The notes below the pieces were generated by a model. It saw only the letters and a list, made by a program, of their open reading frames with translations, did no database searches and was not told the DNA's origin. 64,000 nt of DNA from an uncultured Flavobacteriales bacterium (GTDB lineage: Bacteria > Bacteroidota > Bacteroidia > Flavobacteriales_D > Crocinitomicaceae): the NCBI GenBank assembly GCA_913054135.1, contig CAJXJK010000010.1, positions 1 through 64,000 on the forward strand, written 5' to 3'. Below are positions 1,772-10,636 of the stretch, one piece after another. A program made the translations under genes and the position numbers. How positions within the stretch are numbered: the first letter of the stretch is position 1; every line of letters begins with the position of its first letter.

Positions 1772-3007
1772 CTAACGTTTTTTCTTTTTACGTTTCTTCT
1801 TTTTCTCCTCTTCGTTAGAGTCGATAAGCTTTTGCCAATCATTTGAGCCATCATCTGTGTATTGTATGGTCTCTTTATATTCACCTTTGTCTACGATTGC
1901 TCTTTCTACAGGAACAGAAATATAGTTTTCAATCGCTTCTAGCAATTCTTTTTCTTCCTTTGCACAAAATGCAAGTGCCTTTCCACGATCTCTTCCTCGC
2001 CCTGTTCGTCCAACTCTATGAACATAATTCTCTGCTAATTCAGGAAGGTCATAATTCACCACAAAATCAATATTCGGAATATCGATCCCTCTCGCAGTGA
2101 CGTCAGTAGCGATTAGAATTTTATTGTTACCCTTTTTAAAGTTAGCAAGCACATCTTCACGTTCTCTTTGTTCCTTATCTCCATGAATAGTATCGCTTGA
2201 AACGGCAACTCTCGCCATTGCAGCCTTTACTCTTTCAGCTCTAACTTTTGTTCTAACAAAAACCAAAAACTTTAAGTCCTCATTCTCTTTGATCAAACGT
2301 TCTAGAAAAAATCGCTTGTCATCCATTTCAACAAATGCCACTGAGTGTGCAACATTTTTTGAAACAGGGTCTTTAGGAGATATTTGAATTCTAATGGCAT
2401 TACGAACAAGAGAATAAGCTAGTTTCTTAATCTTCTTATCAATAGTCGCAGAAAAGAATAGTGTTTGTCTATTTTTTGGAAGATACTTTATCAAATCTTC
2501 AATGTCTTTATAAAAACCGAGGTCTAACATGTGGTCAGCCTCATCAAGAATTAATGTTTGAATCTTATCCATTTTCAGAAAACCTTGACTTGCCAAATCA
2601 AACATTCTTCCCGGGGTTGTGACAATAATGTCTACACCTCTTATAAGTGCGTCAATTTGATCATCTTGTTCAACTCCGCCGTAGATACACTGAGTTCTTA
2701 TTCTTGTGTTTCGACATAAAGAATGAAACACTTCAGTTATTTGTATTGCCAATTCTCTAGTTGGAACCATTACAATAACCCTTGGTACAGTTTCTTTCGT
2801 TTTTTTCTTGGCGAATTGTAGTTTATCGATAATAGGAATAGCAAAAGCCGCCGTTTTTCCGGTACCTGTTTGGGCAATTGCCAATAGGTCTTCCCCTTTT
2901 TGAATATGTGGGATACATTTGAATTGAATATCAGTGGGTCTTTTGAACCCCATGTTATGAAGGTTATCCTTCAGTTGGTCTGATATTCTATAGTCGTCAA
3001 ATCTCAT
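1772..3007 (-). CDS. DEAD-box ATP-dependent RNA helicase, RhlE type
   Basis: A 411-residue helicase core with all motifs in order: Q-motif (GFKRPTDIQ), Walker A AQTGTGKT, PTRELA, TPGR, DEAD, SAT, then the second RecA domain with TDVTARGIDIP and HRVGRTGR, ending in a very basic lysine tail (EEEKKKKRKKKKR), which probably helps bind RNA. Role in the family: unwinding RNA in ribosome assembly, RNA decay or cold growth. The ORF track begins nine codons upstream, but the start at 3007 (MRFDDYRISDQ) fits the family and lies eight bases after a perfect TAnnTTTG promoter box, so the upstream codons are probably untranslated. Cytoplasmic. Confidence 0.95.
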   Translation of the reverse strand: MRFDDYRISDQLKDNLHNMGFKRPTDIQFKCIPHIQKGEDLLAIAQTGTGKTAAFAIPIIDKLQFAKKKTKETVPRVIVMVPTRELAIQITEVFHSLCRNTRIRTQCIYGGVEQDDQIDALIRGVDIIVTTPGRMFDLASQGFLKMDKIQTLILDEADHMLDLGFYKDIEDLIKYLPKNRQTLFFSATIDKKIKKLAYSLVRNAIRIQISPKDPVSKNVAHSVAFVEMDDKRFFLERLIKENEDLKFLVFVRTKVRAERVKAAMARVAVSSDTIHGDKEQREREDVLANFKKGNNKILIATDVTARGIDIPNIDFVVNYDLPELAENYVHRVGRTGRGRDRGKALAFCAKEEKELLEAIENYISVPVERAIVDKGEYKETIQYTDDGSNDWQKLIDSNEEEKKKKRKKKKR

Positions 3008-3023: not shown

Positions 3024-3098
3024 GTCAAGGTCAAAGAACTTCTAATTTAAATGACCTAATAACAACATTCAGTTAACATCTCTAGAACTCAATCCACC

Positions 3099-3106
3099 TA
3101 ACTTTG
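3099..3106 (+). promoter_or_regulatory. Promoter -7 box upstream of the candidate small RNA
   Basis: TAACTTTG matches the TAnnTTTG consensus and is identical to the box at 3217-3224 in front of the DUF2480 gene. No good -33 element is seen. Transcription from here would run into the terminator at 3180-3212, about 100 bases later. Confidence 0.45.
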
Positions 3107-3212
3107 ATCCAACGATTAAAGCCAACGGGCTATCGAGTTTCTTAATCGGCATTTTTGCTGGTAGATTTTTTCATGTAAGATACCTCTCATCCCCTGAGAG
3201 GTATTTCTTTTT
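3107..3212 (+). ncRNA. Candidate small RNA or leader RNA of about 100 nt
   Basis: Between the divergent helicase and DUF2480 genes lies a promoter-like box, then an RNA that could fold into a long hairpin (CGATTAA 3113-3119 pairing with TTAATCG 3142-3148, with an inner AGCC/GGCT helix 3120-3123 with 3128-3131), then a strong intrinsic terminator. No ORF of useful length lies inside. A second identical promoter box follows the terminator, so the downstream gene need not depend on read-through. Alternative: an attenuator-type leader of the DUF2480 gene. No known RNA family was recognised. Confidence 0.4.
3180..3212 (+). terminator. Intrinsic terminator without an upstream protein gene
   Basis: A 10-bp perfect stem (3180-3189 with 3195-3204, 5-base loop) is followed by TTCTTTTT. 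It faces the plus strand, yet no plus-strand coding gene lies upstream: the next gene to the left is on the minus strand. It therefore most likely ends a small RNA. Confidence 0.8.
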
Positions 3213-3216
3213 ATCA

Positions 3217-3224
3217 TAACTTTG
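3217..3224 (+). promoter_or_regulatory. Promoter -7 box for the DUF2480 gene
   Basis: TAACTTTG matches TAnnTTTG and sits eight bases before the ATG at 3233, the same geometry as on the helicase side. The expected -33 position would fall inside the terminator hairpin and shows no TTTG. Confidence 0.6.
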
Positions 3225-3232
3225 CATCATAG

Positions 3233-3736
3233 ATGTCTGATGAAATTGTAAATAAAGTAGCTAAAGCCCAAATTGAACAAATTGATTTGAAAGATTTCCT
3301 CTTTAAGGGTGAAATCAAAGAAATTGATTTAAAAGATCAATTATGGAATGAGTTAGTATTGAAAGAATCTGATTTTCGCGCTTGGGTTAAAGAACATGAT
3401 TGGGATTCTTATTCAGATCAAGTAGTGTGCGTCTTCTGTTCGGCTGATGCAATAGTTCCTGCCTGGGCCTTTATGTTGGTGACCGCCGAACTAAAGGATC
3501 CTAAAAAAGTAGTTTTCGGTTCGAAAAAAGACGCAGACAAACAATTGTTTTTTGAAGCTATTGCAAATTGGGATGTATCCGATCTAACAGACAAGCGAGT
3601 TATGGTGAAGGGTTGCTCAGATATTCCTGAACCTAATCAGGCATACGTTGAATTCACGGCGAAACTTTTACCAGTTGTGAAGAGTTTGATGTTCGGTGAG
3701 CCTTGTTCGGCTGTTCCGGTCTACAAAAAAAGATAA
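3233..3736 (+). CDS. DUF2480 family protein
   Basis: A 167-residue soluble acidic protein that I recognise as the Bacteroidota-specific DUF2480 family; no biochemical function is known. Visible features are a repeated ID/EIDLKD motif near the N-terminus (residues 17-34), a central VVCVFCSADAIVPAWAFML segment containing a Cys-rich turn, and a second Cys pair region (VKGCSDIPEPNQ, GEPCSAVPVY) towards the end. No signal peptide. Its stop codon at 3734-3736 directly abuts the stop of the convergent giant adhesin gene, leaving no intergenic base. The promoter box at 3217 supports this start. Confidence 0.8.
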   Translation: MSDEIVNKVAKAQIEQIDLKDFLFKGEIKEIDLKDQLWNELVLKESDFRAWVKEHDWDSYSDQVVCVFCSADAIVPAWAFMLVTAELKDPKKVVFGSKKDADKQLFFEAIANWDVSDLTDKRVMVKGCSDIPEPNQAYVEFTAKLLPVVKSLMFGEPCSAVPVYKKR

Positions 3737-6700
3737 CTACTTAATCACTGTAACGTGACCATGGTATTCTTTGAGGTCGGCCTCATTATCAAGTGGAGCT
3801 CCAATGATTTTCCAAACATAGACACCATCTTGTACAATAACATCTTGATAAGTTCCATCCCATCCTTGTTCTAAGTCTTCTGTCTGAAAAATGAGTTCGC
3901 CCCATCTATTGAAGATGTATAGTTGATACCAATCAGGGTGGAAGTAGTTCGCCACTGGTTTGAAAATGGTATTGTCTGAATAACCATCTAATATGATAGT
4001 GTTCGGAACGAATAAGAATAATTCATTGCTTATTTCAATTGGTCCACAAGTGGTATCTGTACATCCATAATCATTTTCAGCAACCAAACAAACGGTAATT
4101 GCACTTTCAGTTGGCAAGTTGATGAGACTCATTGTTGCATCATTTGTAGTAACTGTATCGCCTAACAAAAACCATTGGCTCATAGTATAATTAGTTGAGT
4201 TATTAATCAAGTCTACTTCCGTATCATAAATTGTTAAGTCGGATGGACTGACCGTAAAGTTGGCTTCAGGTAATCCGAATATTTGAATTGGATTAATGAA
4301 TGAAGTATCAACAGGACATCCATTTGCTGAAGTGAAATTCAAGTTAATATTCCCAAATCCAGGGTCAGAATAAGTAATGTACAGATTATTGAAAGTCGCA
4401 GAATCAATTACTCCATAAGACGTATCCCAGAATAAATCAGAACCAATTTCAGCCAAATTAACTCCAATTGTATAGTTCACTTGGAAAGGAGGGCATCCAC
4501 CAGTTACACCTGGTGTAAGAGTAATAATTGGGTCAGGGAATATACTTACATGAATAGTGTCAGATGTTGTGAGATTACATTCATCAGTAACATCAATGTA
4601 GAATGTCGTGGATGTTCCTGGAGAAGGATAAATATATGGGATTGTATCGCCGGTATTCCATAAGTAGCTGTAATCTTCTAATTGATCAGTAGCTAAAGAA
4701 GAAAGTATTAGCGGTTCATTTGGACAAATAATTGTATCGTTCGAAGTAATCAATACAGGAGCTGGAGCGACATCAACAACCATTGTGTCTGATTGAACCA
4801 TACATCCATTTGCATCTGTCACAGTAGCATAAAAAATAGTGTCCACCAAAATAGGTTCAAATATCAATTCATCAGTTGACTGCCCATTATTTATGTCAAA
4901 AATATAAGGCTGTGTACCTCCGGTTGCAACAACAGAAAAGTAGACAGAGTCACCCAAACAGATGTAAGTGTCTGGTGTTACAAAGGCTTGCATAGGTTGT
5001 GGGGTCGGAACAAATACTTGCATACTATCGCCAGGACAACCATTAGCATCTTGAACATAGGCCCAATAAGTATCAGAAGGTAGGCCCGTATAATTTGTAT
5101 TTGCTGTAAATGGTCCACCATTTAAAGAATAGAATCCTGCATTCGCACTATAGATATCTACAATTCCGTCTGAATCTCCAAAACAGCTTACACCTTGAGC
5201 AAGAACGCTATCAATGTTAGCTTCAATTGGTTCATTCACCACAAAATTCAATGAATCAAGTGTACAGTTATTGTCGTCAGTCACAATTAATGAATAGGTG
5301 CCGTCACATACATTCGTAGCAACTGCATCAGAGTTTCCTGCAATTCCGCCACTCCATGAGTAGCTATAAGTACCTCCAATTGGACCTCCAATAACGTTTG
5401 GAGTAATTACACCATCACATAATCCATAACAACTGGCGTCTTGAATAACGAAAGGATCGAAAGCTAACACATCAGGCTCAGTGATATTCTGAATCATTGT
5501 CATTTGACAACCATTGGCATCAGTTACCATAATATCATAGGCTCCTGCCGAAAGACCGTTAAATTCACCTACACCTTGAGATGTGACACCATTATCAATA
5601 CTAAATTCAAACGGAATCGTTCCACCTGTCGCAGATAGCGAAATCTCACCACTTAAATCTTCAAAGCAAAGAAGATCTTGAGGAGTTGAGAGAATTACAA
5701 TTTGATCAGGCTCAGTTAAATCAACCATAGAACTTGTGATACATCCATTTCCATCTTGAAGGAAGACAACATAAGAACCGTCAGTAAGACCAGTAAAATT
5801 ATTTGAAACTTGGAAAGCCGGAGATCCATTGATTGCATACATATGAACCCCAACTCCACCTGAAGAAGTAACAGTAATAGTACCTTCATTTCCACCAAAA
5901 CATAATGGATTTGTGAAGGCAACATTATCTATTTGTGGCTCAGGGTCGGCCAGTATCGTTACGGTAGAATCAATTTGACAAAGGTTATTGTCCTGTAGCA
6001 CTAAATCATAATCTCCCGGAGCTAATCCTACAAAGTTATTTGATGCTTGGAAGGTTGAGCCTCCATCTATACTATAGTCATAGGTTGGTGTTCCGTTGGC
6101 TGCAACAATTGAAAGGTCGGCATTGTTGTTACCACAAGTTGCAACAGATGTCACAATATCCATACTGAGTTCAGTTGGTTCATTTACACATTCATTAATA
6201 GTCAGATTACAACCATTATCATCTTCTAAATAAACATCATAACATCCGGCAATTAGATCTGTCAAAATGTTAGATGATTGCTGAGTTATACCTCCGTCAC
6301 TAGAGTAGATATAAGGAGGTGTTCCTCCTGAGGGTGCAACAGTAATTGATCCTTCGTCAGATCCAAAACATTGAGTGTTGACTATTGCATTCACCATGTC
6401 TAATACTAATGGTTCAGTTAGTGTTTGCGTGGTATCGAAAGTACATCCTAAATCATCAGTTACTGCAATGTTATGCACTCCCGCATCCAAATTCAAAAAT
6501 ACTCCAGTAGTGTTAGTTGCGACTAAAGTATATTCATAAGGTGCAGTTGCGCCATTAGCCCCAATTTGTATGAAACCAGTTCCGTCTCCGTTGCAGGCCA
6601 AATTGCTTGGGTTGATTAGTGCAGACCAAGGCGCAGGCTCAACAAGGGTCACTTGAATTGCACCCAAACATCCAACTCCGTCTTGCACTACCAAGTCATA

Positions 6701-9700
6701 ATCTCCTGATGTGAGTCCTGTAAATGTTGTTGTCGCAAAGAAATTGATTCCGCCGTCTATTGAGTAAGTATAGTTTCCGTCTCCACCAGTAATATTTGAA
6801 AAATTAATTTCACCATCTGCTCCATCAGGGCAAGTAATGTTTGTGAGGGTGTTGTCGAAAATAACAGAATCAGGTTGAGTAATATTAATTTCTTGGATGC
6901 TAACGCAAAGACCATTATCCACAACAGTAACATAATGCTGTCCCGCACATAGCCCAAAGAAAGATCCATTACCCTGAGAACCTCCTGTATTTATTGAGTA
7001 GTTGAATGGAGGAGTACCGTTAGTTTGTGATATTTGGGCACCACCATTACATGAGTTGAAACAAGTAGCAGGAAATTGAAAATCAATTTGAGTGGTCATT
7101 ATATTATCAGATAATGCCGAGAAAGTAGAATCAAAGCAGCCATTATCATCTTCAACCACTAGATTGTATAATCCTGAAAACAATGAACCGAAGAAGCCAT
7201 TCCCAACTTGAGTTGTTATACCTCCATCAATCGAATACACATATGGTGCTAGACCACCACTTGCAATGATTTCAAAAGATCCATCATTGGCTCCACAATT
7301 TGACGGGTTATTCGCAACAAATGTAAAGTCAAATGGTGGTGGGTCAATAATAGAAATCAGCTCTGTGAATTCGCAACCATTGTCGTCTTGAATCACGACA
7401 TTATAATCCCCCGCCATAAGGCCAGTAATTGGAGAAGCTCCTGTAAATGCTGTTCCATTATCAACACTGAATTGATATGCTGGAGTTCCGCCGGACGGAG
7501 CAAATGAGATCTCACCTCCAGGAGTTTGATGACATAAAGGATCAACAGTTCCTTGGACAGATGACAATGCTGTTGGCTCGGTGATTACTTCAACTGAATT
7601 TGCCAAACAACCATTTGCATCTTTAACCACTACACTGATGTTACCATCACACAAACCTGTCAAGGTTGGAAATAATGAAAAGGTAACTCCGTTATCGTCA
7701 CTGTACTCATAAGGGGGATTTGCACCACTCGCCACAATATCGATTTCTCCGTCACAAATGTCAAAACAACTGGCATTTGAAACAGTAGTATTGTATGATA
7801 AAACTGTTGGTTGGTCTATCACGAAATCAACTGAACCAGTGCAGCCATTTGCATCCGTGACCACAACTGTATGGTTGCCTGCCCCAACTGAAGGGAAGCT
7901 GTTTGACGGTTGATTTGGCCCAGCATTTAAACTATATTCTAAAGGTGCAGTTCCGAAATTTACTCCAATAATAACCGAACCATTAAGTCCACCAAAACAG
8001 GTAACATCATTTAAAACATCAACGAATGGATCTGGTGAAGGTTCGTCAATAATATCAAGTACAATGGATGCTGTGCATCCGTTTGCGTCAGTTACATCAA
8101 TTGTATAGTTACCTTGATCTAAATTTGAGAATAATCCTGAGGCCTGTCCCGGAGCAGCATTAAGTGAATATGAAAATGGTGCTGTTCCGCCAATTGCATC
8201 AACTTCTATTTCACCATTGTCTAACGAACAAGTTTCATTTGTTAATGATATTTGAACTAATTGAAGTACGTCTGGCTCAAAAATAGTGTTCGGAAATACT
8301 GCCTGACAATTATTGACATCTGTAATCGTTATTACAGCCGCTCCTGTACAAAGCCCTGAATATGTGTCAGAAACTTGACTTGGAGCGCCACCTAATGAAT
8401 AATTATAGGGAATGGTTCCTCCTGTTGTGTTTGCTTGAATTTGCCCATCACATAAACCATTACAACTAACAGAGTCGATAGTGAATGTGGCATCTAGCAA
8501 ATCAGGTTGATTCAAGACAATGGTCGTGTCGAATATACAATCAGGACCAAAACTTAATTGCACGTCATAGTTGCTAGCTCCAATAGTATTAAAACTGCCG
8601 GTTGCTTGACTTGATGTTCCTCCATCAATACTATAATCTGTAGCGTAAATATCTGTAATCAAAATAGAACCATCAGTTAAGCCAAAACATGTTGGGTCGG
8701 CCAAAATAAAATCTGGATCAATAGAACAACACTCAGAGGTTGTCATTGGCTGCACGTTAACTGTTACAATTGTAGAATCTATACAGACACTTCCGCCCTC
8801 AATGAAGTAAGTGTAATGATAAACTCCTGGCAATAATGAACTAACTGCAATTGAGTCTCCAAATAAGGCTCCAGAGTTGTCTGTATCTTCCCAATATCCT
8901 CCAGGATCGGATGTTCCGATTAGAAGATTTGGTAGTGCAATGTCTGCTGTATCGGCGCAGGCTGAAATCGAGTCGCCAACACCTATTTCAATATCTTGAA
9001 TGTTCGTGAACACTAATGTGGACATTTCGCAGATGGTATCGGGAGCAGCTCCACAGCAATCCAAGATTTTGCAAACAGTGAGGTCTAAAGTATCAGGCCC
9101 GGTTGTGGTAAGATCTCTGGTATAAGTAAAGAATAGAGAGTCGGCATTGAAGCCATCAATGGTCACCATTCCTCCTAAAGATGGATCATGAAACTCGGCT
9201 GAAACATCTATGTAAGGACCTTCAATTGAGTAGGTCGTGAAGGTACTTGATTCACTTTCACAAACTATAAATGATGTAGTGTCCCCTTGATCAACTTGAA
9301 CAAATTGTGAAAATCCGGTAAAGTAACCGGCTGATCCCCTTGGCCCTTGAAGAGTCAATAATGCTACATTAATTATACTGTCAGATTCTACTACAAAATC
9401 TCCAGTTCCGCCCGGAATTTTATAGGTCAACCAGCAGCTATTTCCAGGTACTGTGAGTCCGCCAGTCAATGGTGTAGCAGATCCGTTAACCCATACACTT
9501 GCGTTTGCTCTGGCAGTGATGCTCACTGTTGGCACTCCGATTAAATTAATTGAAGGGATAACTACTTTTTTAAATCCGTTACATCTTAAGGGCGGAATAA
9601 AATTCAAACTTGTAGCGGCCGGACTTGTTCCAGAAAGAGACTGGTACATGAATACTGGCTGTGATGTTTCTATATAAATATTGTCATTCGCAGAGTATGC

Positions 9701-10636
9701 TGTTTGCGGAAGATAGACGTATTCACCAGCATTTATATTTGCTACGGCTACAGGGTTTCCGTTCACGAAAATATCTGTATTGTCAACATCAGCGACAATT
9801 AACGGTCGCTCGGTATTTGCGTTTCCGTTTCCTTCTAAAAAAATGTATTCAGTACCTGTTAAGTTTGAAGGCACAATTTGATCAACACCAATGTCTCTCC
9901 AGTTACCATGTGCGCCTCCAAGCCAAGACCCAGTATTACATGCGATCGGTTTGTCAGAAGTAATGAGTGATCCGTTTACGTCATTAATGTTTCCTGTTGC
10001 TCCAGGCTCATCCAACCAAGCAGCAATTGTGTATGATTCTCCCGCATTCAAAACCACTACGATATCGTCAGAGGTGCCCGCCGTTACAGGTGTACCTCTA
10101 AAAATCACATTCGGCTTGAAATCAGAAAAAGTCACTGTAGTATTATCTTCAGAAGCCATCACTGAAATTTCACTTGCTTTCACATAAGGAATTCCGGTAT
10201 TGTTAAAAATATGGCCAGATCTAAATCTTGTTCCCAGCCCGGTACTGGCACCTTTTGAGTTTAGGCTTAAACCTTGATAAGTTTGTGAATGTCTTAAGTT
10301 CGCATAAATTGGAGCTGTGGCATCAATGATAAATCCATCAGTCGGGTTCACAGTGTTTAATTCTGCAGTGTTAATCATTCCCGGAGCGGCATAACCTGTA
10401 CCTAGAAGGTATGTTGAAGGAGCAACATCAGTAATTGTAACCGAATAAATAATTGTCCCTTGTCCATTTTTAACATCAACGTCAACAGGAGCTGTAGATG
10501 GTGTACTCAAAATCAAGTAGTGATTCTGAACATTTGTACGTCCGTAAAGAGGTGGTATATAGTGCTTTACATCCAGCTGCGCATAGCCAGTTGAGACCGA
10601 TAGTAAGCAAAATACCGCGAGAATTAGGTTTTTCAT
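3737..10636 (-). CDS. Giant secreted adhesin: IgGFc-binding-like, SprB repeats, T9SS type B
   Basis: A 2299-residue surface protein. Order: Sec signal peptide (cleavage after about residue 20, ending TGYAQ), an IgGFc-binding-protein-like N-terminal region to about residue 450, a linker with Cys pairs (450-640), about sixteen SprB-type repeats of roughly 77 residues (about 645-1884; each with a Cys after the start, GG(T)xPYxYSxDGG in the middle and (D)xNGC near the end), an Ig-like region, and a type B gliding-motility C-terminal domain (YQLYIFNRWGELIFQ...WDGTYQ...GHVTVIK). Known SprB is the motile flavobacterial adhesin moved by gliding machinery; here the repeats suggest adhesion, but ligand and motility role are inferred. 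It is a single-gene unit. Confidence 0.9.
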   Translation of the reverse strand: MKNLILAVFCLLSVSTGYAQLDVKHYIPPLYGRTNVQNHYLILSTPSTAPVDVDVKNGQGTIIYSVTITDVAPSTYLLGTGYAAPGMINTAELNTVNPTDGFIIDATAPIYANLRHSQTYQGLSLNSKGASTGLGTRFRSGHIFNNTGIPYVKASEISVMASEDNTTVTFSDFKPNVIFRGTPVTAGTSDDIVVVLNAGESYTIAAWLDEPGATGNINDVNGSLITSDKPIACNTGSWLGGAHGNWRDIGVDQIVPSNLTGTEYIFLEGNGNANTERPLIVADVDNTDIFVNGNPVAVANINAGEYVYLPQTAYSANDNIYIETSQPVFMYQSLSGTSPAATSLNFIPPLRCNGFKKVVIPSINLIGVPTVSITARANASVWVNGSATPLTGGLTVPGNSCWLTYKIPGGTGDFVVESDSIINVALLTLQGPRGSAGYFTGFSQFVQVDQGDTTSFIVCESESSTFTTYSIEGPYIDVSAEFHDPSLGGMVTIDGFNADSLFFTYTRDLTTTGPDTLDLTVCKILDCCGAAPDTICEMSTLVFTNIQDIEIGVGDSISACADTADIALPNLLIGTSDPGGYWEDTDNSGALFGDSIAVSSLLPGVYHYTYFIEGGSVCIDSTIVTVNVQPMTTSECCSIDPDFILADPTCFGLTDGSILITDIYATDYSIDGGTSSQATGSFNTIGASNYDVQLSFGPDCIFDTTIVLNQPDLLDATFTIDSVSCNGLCDGQIQANTTGGTIPYNYSLGGAPSQVSDTYSGLCTGAAVITITDVNNCQAVFPNTIFEPDVLQLVQISLTNETCSLDNGEIEVDAIGGTAPFSYSLNAAPGQASGLFSNLDQGNYTIDVTDANGCTASIVLDIIDEPSPDPFVDVLNDVTCFGGLNGSVIIGVNFGTAPLEYSLNAGPNQPSNSFPSVGAGNHTVVVTDANGCTGSVDFVIDQPTVLSYNTTVSNASCFDICDGEIDIVASGANPPYEYSDDNGVTFSLFPTLTGLCDGNISVVVKDANGCLANSVEVITEPTALSSVQGTVDPLCHQTPGGEISFAPSGGTPAYQFSVDNGTAFTGASPITGLMAGDYNVVIQDDNGCEFTELISIIDPPPFDFTFVANNPSNCGANDGSFEIIASGGLAPYVYSIDGGITTQVGNGFFGSLFSGLYNLVVEDDNGCFDSTFSALSDNIMTTQIDFQFPATCFNSCNGGAQISQTNGTPPFNYSINTGGSQGNGSFFGLCAGQHYVTVVDNGLCVSIQEINITQPDSVIFDNTLTNITCPDGADGEINFSNITGGDGNYTYSIDGGINFFATTTFTGLTSGDYDLVVQDGVGCLGAIQVTLVEPAPWSALINPSNLACNGDGTGFIQIGANGATAPYEYTLVATNTTGVFLNLDAGVHNIAVTDDLGCTFDTTQTLTEPLVLDMVNAIVNTQCFGSDEGSITVAPSGGTPPYIYSSDGGITQQSSNILTDLIAGCYDVYLEDDNGCNLTINECVNEPTELSMDIVTSVATCGNNNADLSIVAANGTPTYDYSIDGGSTFQASNNFVGLAPGDYDLVLQDNNLCQIDSTVTILADPEPQIDNVAFTNPLCFGGNEGTITVTSSGGVGVHMYAINGSPAFQVSNNFTGLTDGSYVVFLQDGNGCITSSMVDLTEPDQIVILSTPQDLLCFEDLSGEISLSATGGTIPFEFSIDNGVTSQGVGEFNGLSAGAYDIMVTDANGCQMTMIQNITEPDVLAFDPFVIQDASCYGLCDGVITPNVIGGPIGGTYSYSWSGGIAGNSDAVATNVCDGTYSLIVTDDNNCTLDSLNFVVNEPIEANIDSVLAQGVSCFGDSDGIVDIYSANAGFYSLNGGPFTANTNYTGLPSDTYWAYVQDANGCPGDSMQVFVPTPQPMQAFVTPDTYICLGDSVYFSVVATGGTQPYIFDINNGQSTDELIFEPILVDTIFYATVTDANGCMVQSDTMVVDVAPAPVLITSNDTIICPNEPLILSSLATDQLEDYSYLWNTGDTIPYIYPSPGTSTTFYIDVTDECNLTTSDTIHVSIFPDPIITLTPGVTGGCPPFQVNYTIGVNLAEIGSDLFWDTSYGVIDSATFNNLYITYSDPGFGNINLNFTSANGCPVDTSFINPIQIFGLPEANFTVSPSDLTIYDTEVDLINNSTNYTMSQWFLLGDTVTTNDATMSLINLPTESAITVCLVAENDYGCTDTTCGPIEISNELFLFVPNTIILDGYSDNTIFKPVANYFHPDWYQLYIFNRWGELIFQTEDLEQGWDGTYQDVIVQDGVYVWKIIGAPLDNEADLKEYHGHVTVIK
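4985..8705 (-). repeat. About sixteen SprB-type protein repeats
   Basis: Within the adhesin gene, units of roughly 230 bases encode diverged copies of a 77-residue module (start C-(F)G..DG, middle SIDGG, end DxNGC followed by xEP). Divergence between copies is high at the DNA level, so this is an old array rather than a recent expansion. The last recognisable unit is followed by an Ig-like domain rather than another repeat. Confidence 0.75.

Follow-up and report, generated by a model that had tools for sequence, protein, structure and literature searches.

A predicted multi-copy small RNA family of Crocinitomicaceae with an exposed core antisense to start codons

In the genome of an uncultured Flavobacteriales bacterium (Crocinitomicaceae), the space between two divergent genes, encoding a DEAD-box RNA helicase and a DUF2480 protein, holds a strong terminator that faces no protein gene. 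What, then, does this terminator end? The locus lies in the first part of a 64,000-nt stretch of contig CAJXJK010000010.1 (GCA_913054135.1), called here the window. A sequence-only reading had proposed a candidate small RNA (sRNA) at this place, and its description of the site, including the divergent neighbours, was borne out. The explanation that we favour, with a probability of roughly 0.6, is that the space encodes a trans-acting sRNA belonging to a multi-copy family, which would act by pairing with the start codons of mRNAs for secreted proteins.

A family of RNAs sharing one exposed core

We built a covariance model, R1, from 16 members including the window sequence, which itself matches the model with an E-value of 1.1e-7 as part of the training set. 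Among 120 genomes of the family scanned, each of the 4 same-genus genomes had matches with E < 1e-4, as had G010 and 9/9 genomes of the genus Crocinitomix (g11), and many of the matches fell outside the training set (including G032:C6 at 2.7e-15, G127:C234 at 3.8e-14, and G070:C12). The copies can be read directly: the core, with a strong terminator directly after it, recurs at unrelated loci, and the genome of the window (G000) holds the window RNA, a sister copy at G000:C9:8999 (L061) and, at G000:C1:88312, a version in the 3' untranslated region (UTR) of a gene for a T9SS-sorted protein (T9SS, type IX secretion system). A covariance search, suggested by the sequence-only reading as a check, therefore detected paralogues at other loci, though through our custom model and not through Rfam. 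Against Rfam nothing exceeded the gathering cut-off in the window or in 14 member-holding loci; sub-threshold matches (the best to trpB, 18.3 of 59 bits, and another to an S15 leader) were put down to chance.

Scanning 150 genomes at the level of the order gave only Crocinitomicaceae members and one borderline match outside the family. When an exact 17-mer was sought in about 85,000 species genomes, terminator-bearing members appeared only in Crocinitomicaceae-type records; exact core matches elsewhere were mostly within coding sequence or lacked a terminator, so the family is not widespread. The window RNA thus almost certainly belongs, as judged from these comparisons, to a multi-copy family of Crocinitomix-like Crocinitomicaceae. 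This sRNA family is undescribed and absent from Rfam; its kind is already known, and its seed is unusual. In the literature searched, sRNAs had not been reported from Crocinitomicaceae, and nothing on point turned up for sRNAs together with the T9SS.

The stretch 3107-3212 folds with -30.3 kcal/mol (z = -3.7), and none of 200 shuffles was equally stable, in agreement with the earlier description of a foldable region followed by a perfect 10-bp terminator. The upstream part of the RNA forms small hairpins, mainly at 3145-3162, and the terminator stem is followed by the U-run TTTCTTTTT, which reaches 3212. Family-wide, the core GUAGAUUUUUUCAUG lies exposed between hairpin and terminator: its U-run and CAUG are predicted to be unpaired, with a mean probability of 0.77-0.93 for ten of the 13 members tested and of 0.47-0.60 for the other three, and the U6CAUG part of the window core has a mean of 0.91. 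The RNA therefore carries, at the level of sequence, what is expected of a trans-encoded sRNA, namely a promoter of its own (TTAACA-N20-TAnnTTTG), an intrinsic terminator, and a mostly unpaired seed kept across loci and genera. The putative functional core is this unpaired GUAGAUUUUUUCAUG and not the hairpin that the earlier reading had stressed; the multi-copy family likewise goes beyond that reading.

Most copies share a general layout of one or more 5' hairpins, a CTATT..AATAG hairpin with an AGUAAGCRU loop, the core and the terminator. The loop motif is conserved in most stand-alone copies and is absent from the three copies at DUF2480 loci (window, L006, L009). The hairpin 5' of the core and the terminator still pair despite changed sequences, as counted from single-sequence folds and not as formal covariation. 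RNAalifold on a MAFFT alignment returned no structure, because varying loop lengths shift the arms, and structures were checked one member at a time.

The stand-alone copies fall into two promoter classes: a sigma-A class, to which the window copy belongs, with a TAnnTTTG-like box often accompanied by TTAACA, and a TGTAAC-N15-GTGTC class. The pattern TGTAAC-N15-GTGTCHTA, which resembles promoters of extracytoplasmic function (ECF) sigma factors, has 10 matches in 8 genomes; seven stand immediately 5' of an sRNA copy, and two others precede apparent envelope-protein genes. Most genomes pair one sigma-A-type copy with one copy that has the ECF-like promoter; at least nine do so (G000, G001, G003, G010, G070, G082, G093, G103 and G127). 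In Flavobacterium psychrophilum, ECF promoters have CGT-type -10 boxes (PMC9723704). In the window copy the promoter box is of the sigma-A type and not of the ECF type; its sister at G000:C9 has the ECF-like pattern and may be under ECF control.

In Crocinitomix and G022 (L073, L176-L180, L182, L187) a sigma-A copy occupies a different locus, where it follows a gene for an outer-membrane beta-barrel protein (PF13568 in L177). Several of these copies lie next to a polysaccharide deacetylase-like gene, and in G070 two copies stand in tandem (L182).

Complementarity of the core to start codons

Read as its reverse complement, the core gives ATGAAAAAATCTAC, a start codon followed by lysine codons, and it stands antisense to gene starts that read ATGAAAAA(A)ATCTAC. 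Outside the sRNA copies, ATGAAAAAAATCTAC occurs twice per same-genus genome and always at a start codon (11/11 sites read), mostly in genes for ~600-aa proteins that bear a T9SS type A sorting domain and form two homologous groups. In G000 the genes for the two T9SS proteins of this size start at C1:206861 and C16:47369. All four orthologues of the first group in the window's genus read ATGAAAAAAATCTAC, with proteins merely 43-62% identical. An apparent constraint on codon 5 was also seen: it is TAC in 26/26 homologues, which were collected by protein search and so not picked for the string, against a baseline of 37% TAC among tyrosine codons in the remainder of these genes and likewise 37% on contig C1. 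Ranked by the duplex energy of the core alone, the two target genes come 3rd and 4th of 373 starts. A genome-wide preference for ATC at MKKIY starts was dropped as evidence, since it is not clade-specific, and only the TAC and orthologue evidence was used.

Several observations weigh against reading these matches as targets. The exact-match target search itself demanded ATCTAC, and the 26 homologues are not independent of each other. MKKIY starts use TAC often also in control genomes without the family (25/54 against 44/57; Fisher p = 0.0009, ancestry uncorrected). Given a U-rich seed and the many signal-peptide genes that have ATGAAAAAA starts, composition alone easily yields start-codon matches. 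The shuffled-core test favoured the targets only mildly: 5 starts reached -12 kcal/mol or lower, whereas shuffled cores averaged 0.6 but gave up to 9. The closest Crocinitomix homologues begin MEKLY, a poor fit, and the window core pairs with A7 targets only with one bulge. The constraint on complementary mRNA sites, in the exact T9SS starts and in TAC at 26/26, is thus confounded by composition and phylogeny. Taken together, the sequences lean towards pairing at the start codon as the mode of action, and we tentatively propose T9SS cargo as the main targets.

The sequences show the anatomy of the RNA, its copies and their conservation, the antisense matches at start codons and the bias at codon 5; transcription, pairing in vivo and repression are what we infer from them, in the following way. 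The sigma-A promoter and terminator would yield a trans-acting RNA of 3111-3212, the housekeeping copy of the family. This RNA, its siblings and the 3'-UTR element on contig C1 would all expose single-stranded (GUAGA)UUUUUUCAUG between hairpin and terminator. The segment would pair with AUG and the first codons of target mRNAs and block the initiation of translation for T9SS-exported proteins and others with a signal peptide (surface or secreted). A search for Hfq (PF17209) gave no match in G000 (98% complete), while control genomes did match; the RNA is thus not placed among Hfq-dependent sRNAs in this genome, and pairing would be unaided or helped by another chaperone.

It is also conceivable, though in our view unlikely, that the RNAs form a free-standing sRNA family whose U6CAUG(G) core is a site for a protein, serving as a sponge or as a landing site for a chaperone or RNase by the terminator, and not an antisense seed. 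The core always stands directly 5' of the terminator, the usual spot for chaperone-binding U-runs, also in 3' UTRs, and most copies have a second conserved loop motif, AGTAAGCRT, without an assigned partner. However, the conservation goes past the U-run into GTAGA and CATGG, matching start-codon contexts, and exact antisense partners stand at the starts of orthologous secreted-protein genes. The failure to find Hfq speaks in the same direction, as does a second RNA from the same genus, unrelated to this family, which bears UUUUUUCAUGG at its 5' end, away from its terminator. We therefore prefer the antisense seed.

The locus and its conservation in relatives

The anatomy of the locus is given in Table 1. 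Both boxes reported earlier as identical indeed read TAACTTTG. In F. psychrophilum the sigma-A consensus was mapped as TAnnTTTG at -12 to -5 (PMC9723704), and the start of the sRNA is accordingly predicted at about 3111 and that of the DUF2480 mRNA at about 3229. By itself the 8-mer TAACTTTG is no rarity: the window has 4, against a chance expectation of 4.9, and each strand shows TAnnTTTG about every 1.5 kb. The weight of the box therefore rests on its position and on its conservation between genomes. The TTAACA-N20-TAnnTTTG spacing is identical in the relative L009, and most of the sigma-A-type copies that were read likewise have TTAACA ahead of the box. As had been stated, no protein gene on the plus strand explains the terminator: no open reading frame of at least 50 aa was found across the sRNA stretch.

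Table 1. Features of the sRNA locus in the window
Feature	Position	Strand	Remarks
DEAD-box RNA helicase gene	1772..3007	-	Divergent neighbour of the RNA; RNA remains adjacent to the helicase in G003
-33-like promoter element TTAACA of the sRNA	3073..3078	+	20 bp 5' of the -7 box
Sigma-A -7 box TAACTTTG (TAnnTTTG) of the sRNA	3099..3106	+	Kept in L006 and L009
Predicted sRNA gene, about 102 nt	3111..3212	+	Both ends predicted; fold, covariance model match, relatives L006/L009/L068
5' hairpin AGCC-AACG-GGCT	3120..3131	+	L006 counterpart AGCC-AGCG-GGCT
Hairpin ATCGGCA-TTTT-TGCTGGT, immediately 5' of the core	3145..3162	+	Other sequences in relatives, still pairing
Conserved core GTAGATTTTTTCATG, proposed seed	3161..3175	+	Recurs 5' of terminators at other loci
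Intrinsic terminator hairpin ATACCTCTCA-TCCCC-TGAGAGGTAT	3178..3206	+	10 perfect pairs, extendable to 12
-7 box TAACTTTG of the DUF2480 gene	3217..3224	+	Precedes DUF2480 in relatives whether or not they carry the RNA
DUF2480 protein gene (PF10652)	3233..3736	+	Pfam E 1.6e-64; downstream neighbour, outside the RNA

We compared this intergenic space in relatives. G001 (L006), from the same genus, and G010 (L009), from another genus, share the order of box, RNA, terminator, box and DUF2480. Their stem sequences differ, but they retain GTAGA[T/A]TTTTTC[A/T]TG with a hairpin and a U-run behind it. This conservation is directly observed, and it is the core and terminator architecture that has been kept. 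In L006, L009 and L068 the RNA lies at the same helicase locus as in the window.

Its position directly upstream of DUF2480 and on the same strand, in three genomes of two genera, could also mark the RNA as a 5' leader or attenuator, in which transcription from the first box stops at the terminator unless a signal permits read-through. DUF2480 has, however, a box of its own 8 bp before its ATG. This box, assigned to the next gene already by the sequence-only reading, is retained in four loci where the RNA is absent (L003, L004, L005 and L007). In G003 the RNA (L068) adjoins the helicase, and DUF2480 stands elsewhere (L002), behind a gene whose end resembles the window's 3737-10636 gene. RNA and DUF2480 are thus separable, which disfavours the leader, and paralogues of the RNA occur at loci without DUF2480; we consider a leader very improbable. 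Even less credible is a terminator that stands alone as an insulator and ends no functional RNA. A sigma-A-like box could fall near a strong terminator by chance, TAnnTTTG being frequent, but the internal core and hairpins are conserved and paralogues carry promoters of their own. The earlier preference for a free-standing RNA over a leader thus holds, and 3111-3212 is very probably, from this comparative evidence, a free-standing RNA gene.

The close spacing of the DUF2480 box and the ATG (3233) implies a 5' UTR of ~4 nt, so that the mRNA would be near-leaderless, and the short spacing is conserved in relatives. A SufE-like identity for this gene was dropped in favour of the Pfam assignment. 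Convergent with it lies the gene of a 2299-aa repetitive secreted protein (3737-10636, minus strand).

Related elements, known systems and significance

Core-like elements are also found outside the stand-alone copies. Orthologous genes for proteins with T9SS tails in G000, G001, G003 and G022 (L193, L185, L189, L188) have a U-CAU core and a terminator right after the stop codon, and some of these 3'-UTR versions carry the GTAAGC motif. The arrangement hints that such RNAs may be released from cargo mRNAs, or that these mRNAs may act in the same way themselves. A U-tract-CATG core and a hairpin also follow other genes in a 3'-UTR-like arrangement (L184 at G010:C198, L186 at G010:C341, L190 at G003:C359), which suggests that 3' ends more widely carry the element.

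The second, unrelated stand-alone RNA lies at G000:C3:282223-282348 (L213/L366), with counterparts in G002, G001 and G003 (L367, L368 and L369). It has a TATATTTG box, AGAGTTTTTTCATGGTTTTC at the 5' end, a terminator GGCCCAAC..GTTGGGC and the same UUUUUUCAUGG seed. It is 83-87% conserved in 4/4 genomes of the genus, its flanks are not conserved, and against Rfam every match was below the gathering score.

Among known systems, MicA and RybB are sigma-E-dependent sRNAs of enterobacteria, and FoxI and FoxJ occur in Fusobacterium nucleatum. The RNAs described here resemble these in being short and terminator-ended, with an exposed seed and a proposed pairing near start codons of envelope-protein mRNAs, and one copy has an ECF-like promoter. 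They differ in having no Rfam relation to them, in the sigma-A-type promoter of the window copy, in the lack of a detectable Hfq in this genome, and in that the proposed targets are T9SS-exported proteins and not porins. LhrC of Listeria and AbcR of rhizobia are sibling sRNA families with C-rich seeds of the anti-Shine-Dalgarno type; here too several near-redundant RNAs per genome share one unpaired seed under different promoters, but the seed is antisense to AUG and the first codons.

In F. psychrophilum, the sRNA Rfp18 has predicted secreted-protein targets (metalloproteases and an adhesin), and normal protease mRNA levels require it; its predicted pairing region is the third stem-loop, and its deletion lowered target mRNA levels (PMC9723704). 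The likeness is that of a Bacteroidota sRNA with predicted secreted-protein targets; the third stem-loop as pairing region and the lowered target mRNA upon deletion set Rfp18 apart. The 6S-Flavo RNA (RF01685) is close in length (108 positions) and comes from the same host group. It did not match the window, and a genome search was also blank, but as the control genomes gave no match either, this blank says nothing about absence.

Few regulatory RNAs are, to our knowledge, known in Bacteroidota, which mostly initiate translation without a Shine-Dalgarno lead. It is possible, though speculative, that a whole network in Crocinitomicaceae is built on the single anti-start-codon seed UUUUUUCAUG, in which sigma-A and ECF siblings, the second sRNA and the 3'-UTR versions of T9SS cargo genes would all silence ATGAAAAA... 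mRNAs. If true, such a network would be an Hfq-free, Shine-Dalgarno-independent control of the secretome, in which 3' UTRs would exert feedback on further cargo genes. The family offers paired housekeeping and stress-type copies for comparison, and a seed antisense to AUG and the first lysine codons would provide a concrete model for the post-transcriptional control of type IX secretion cargo.
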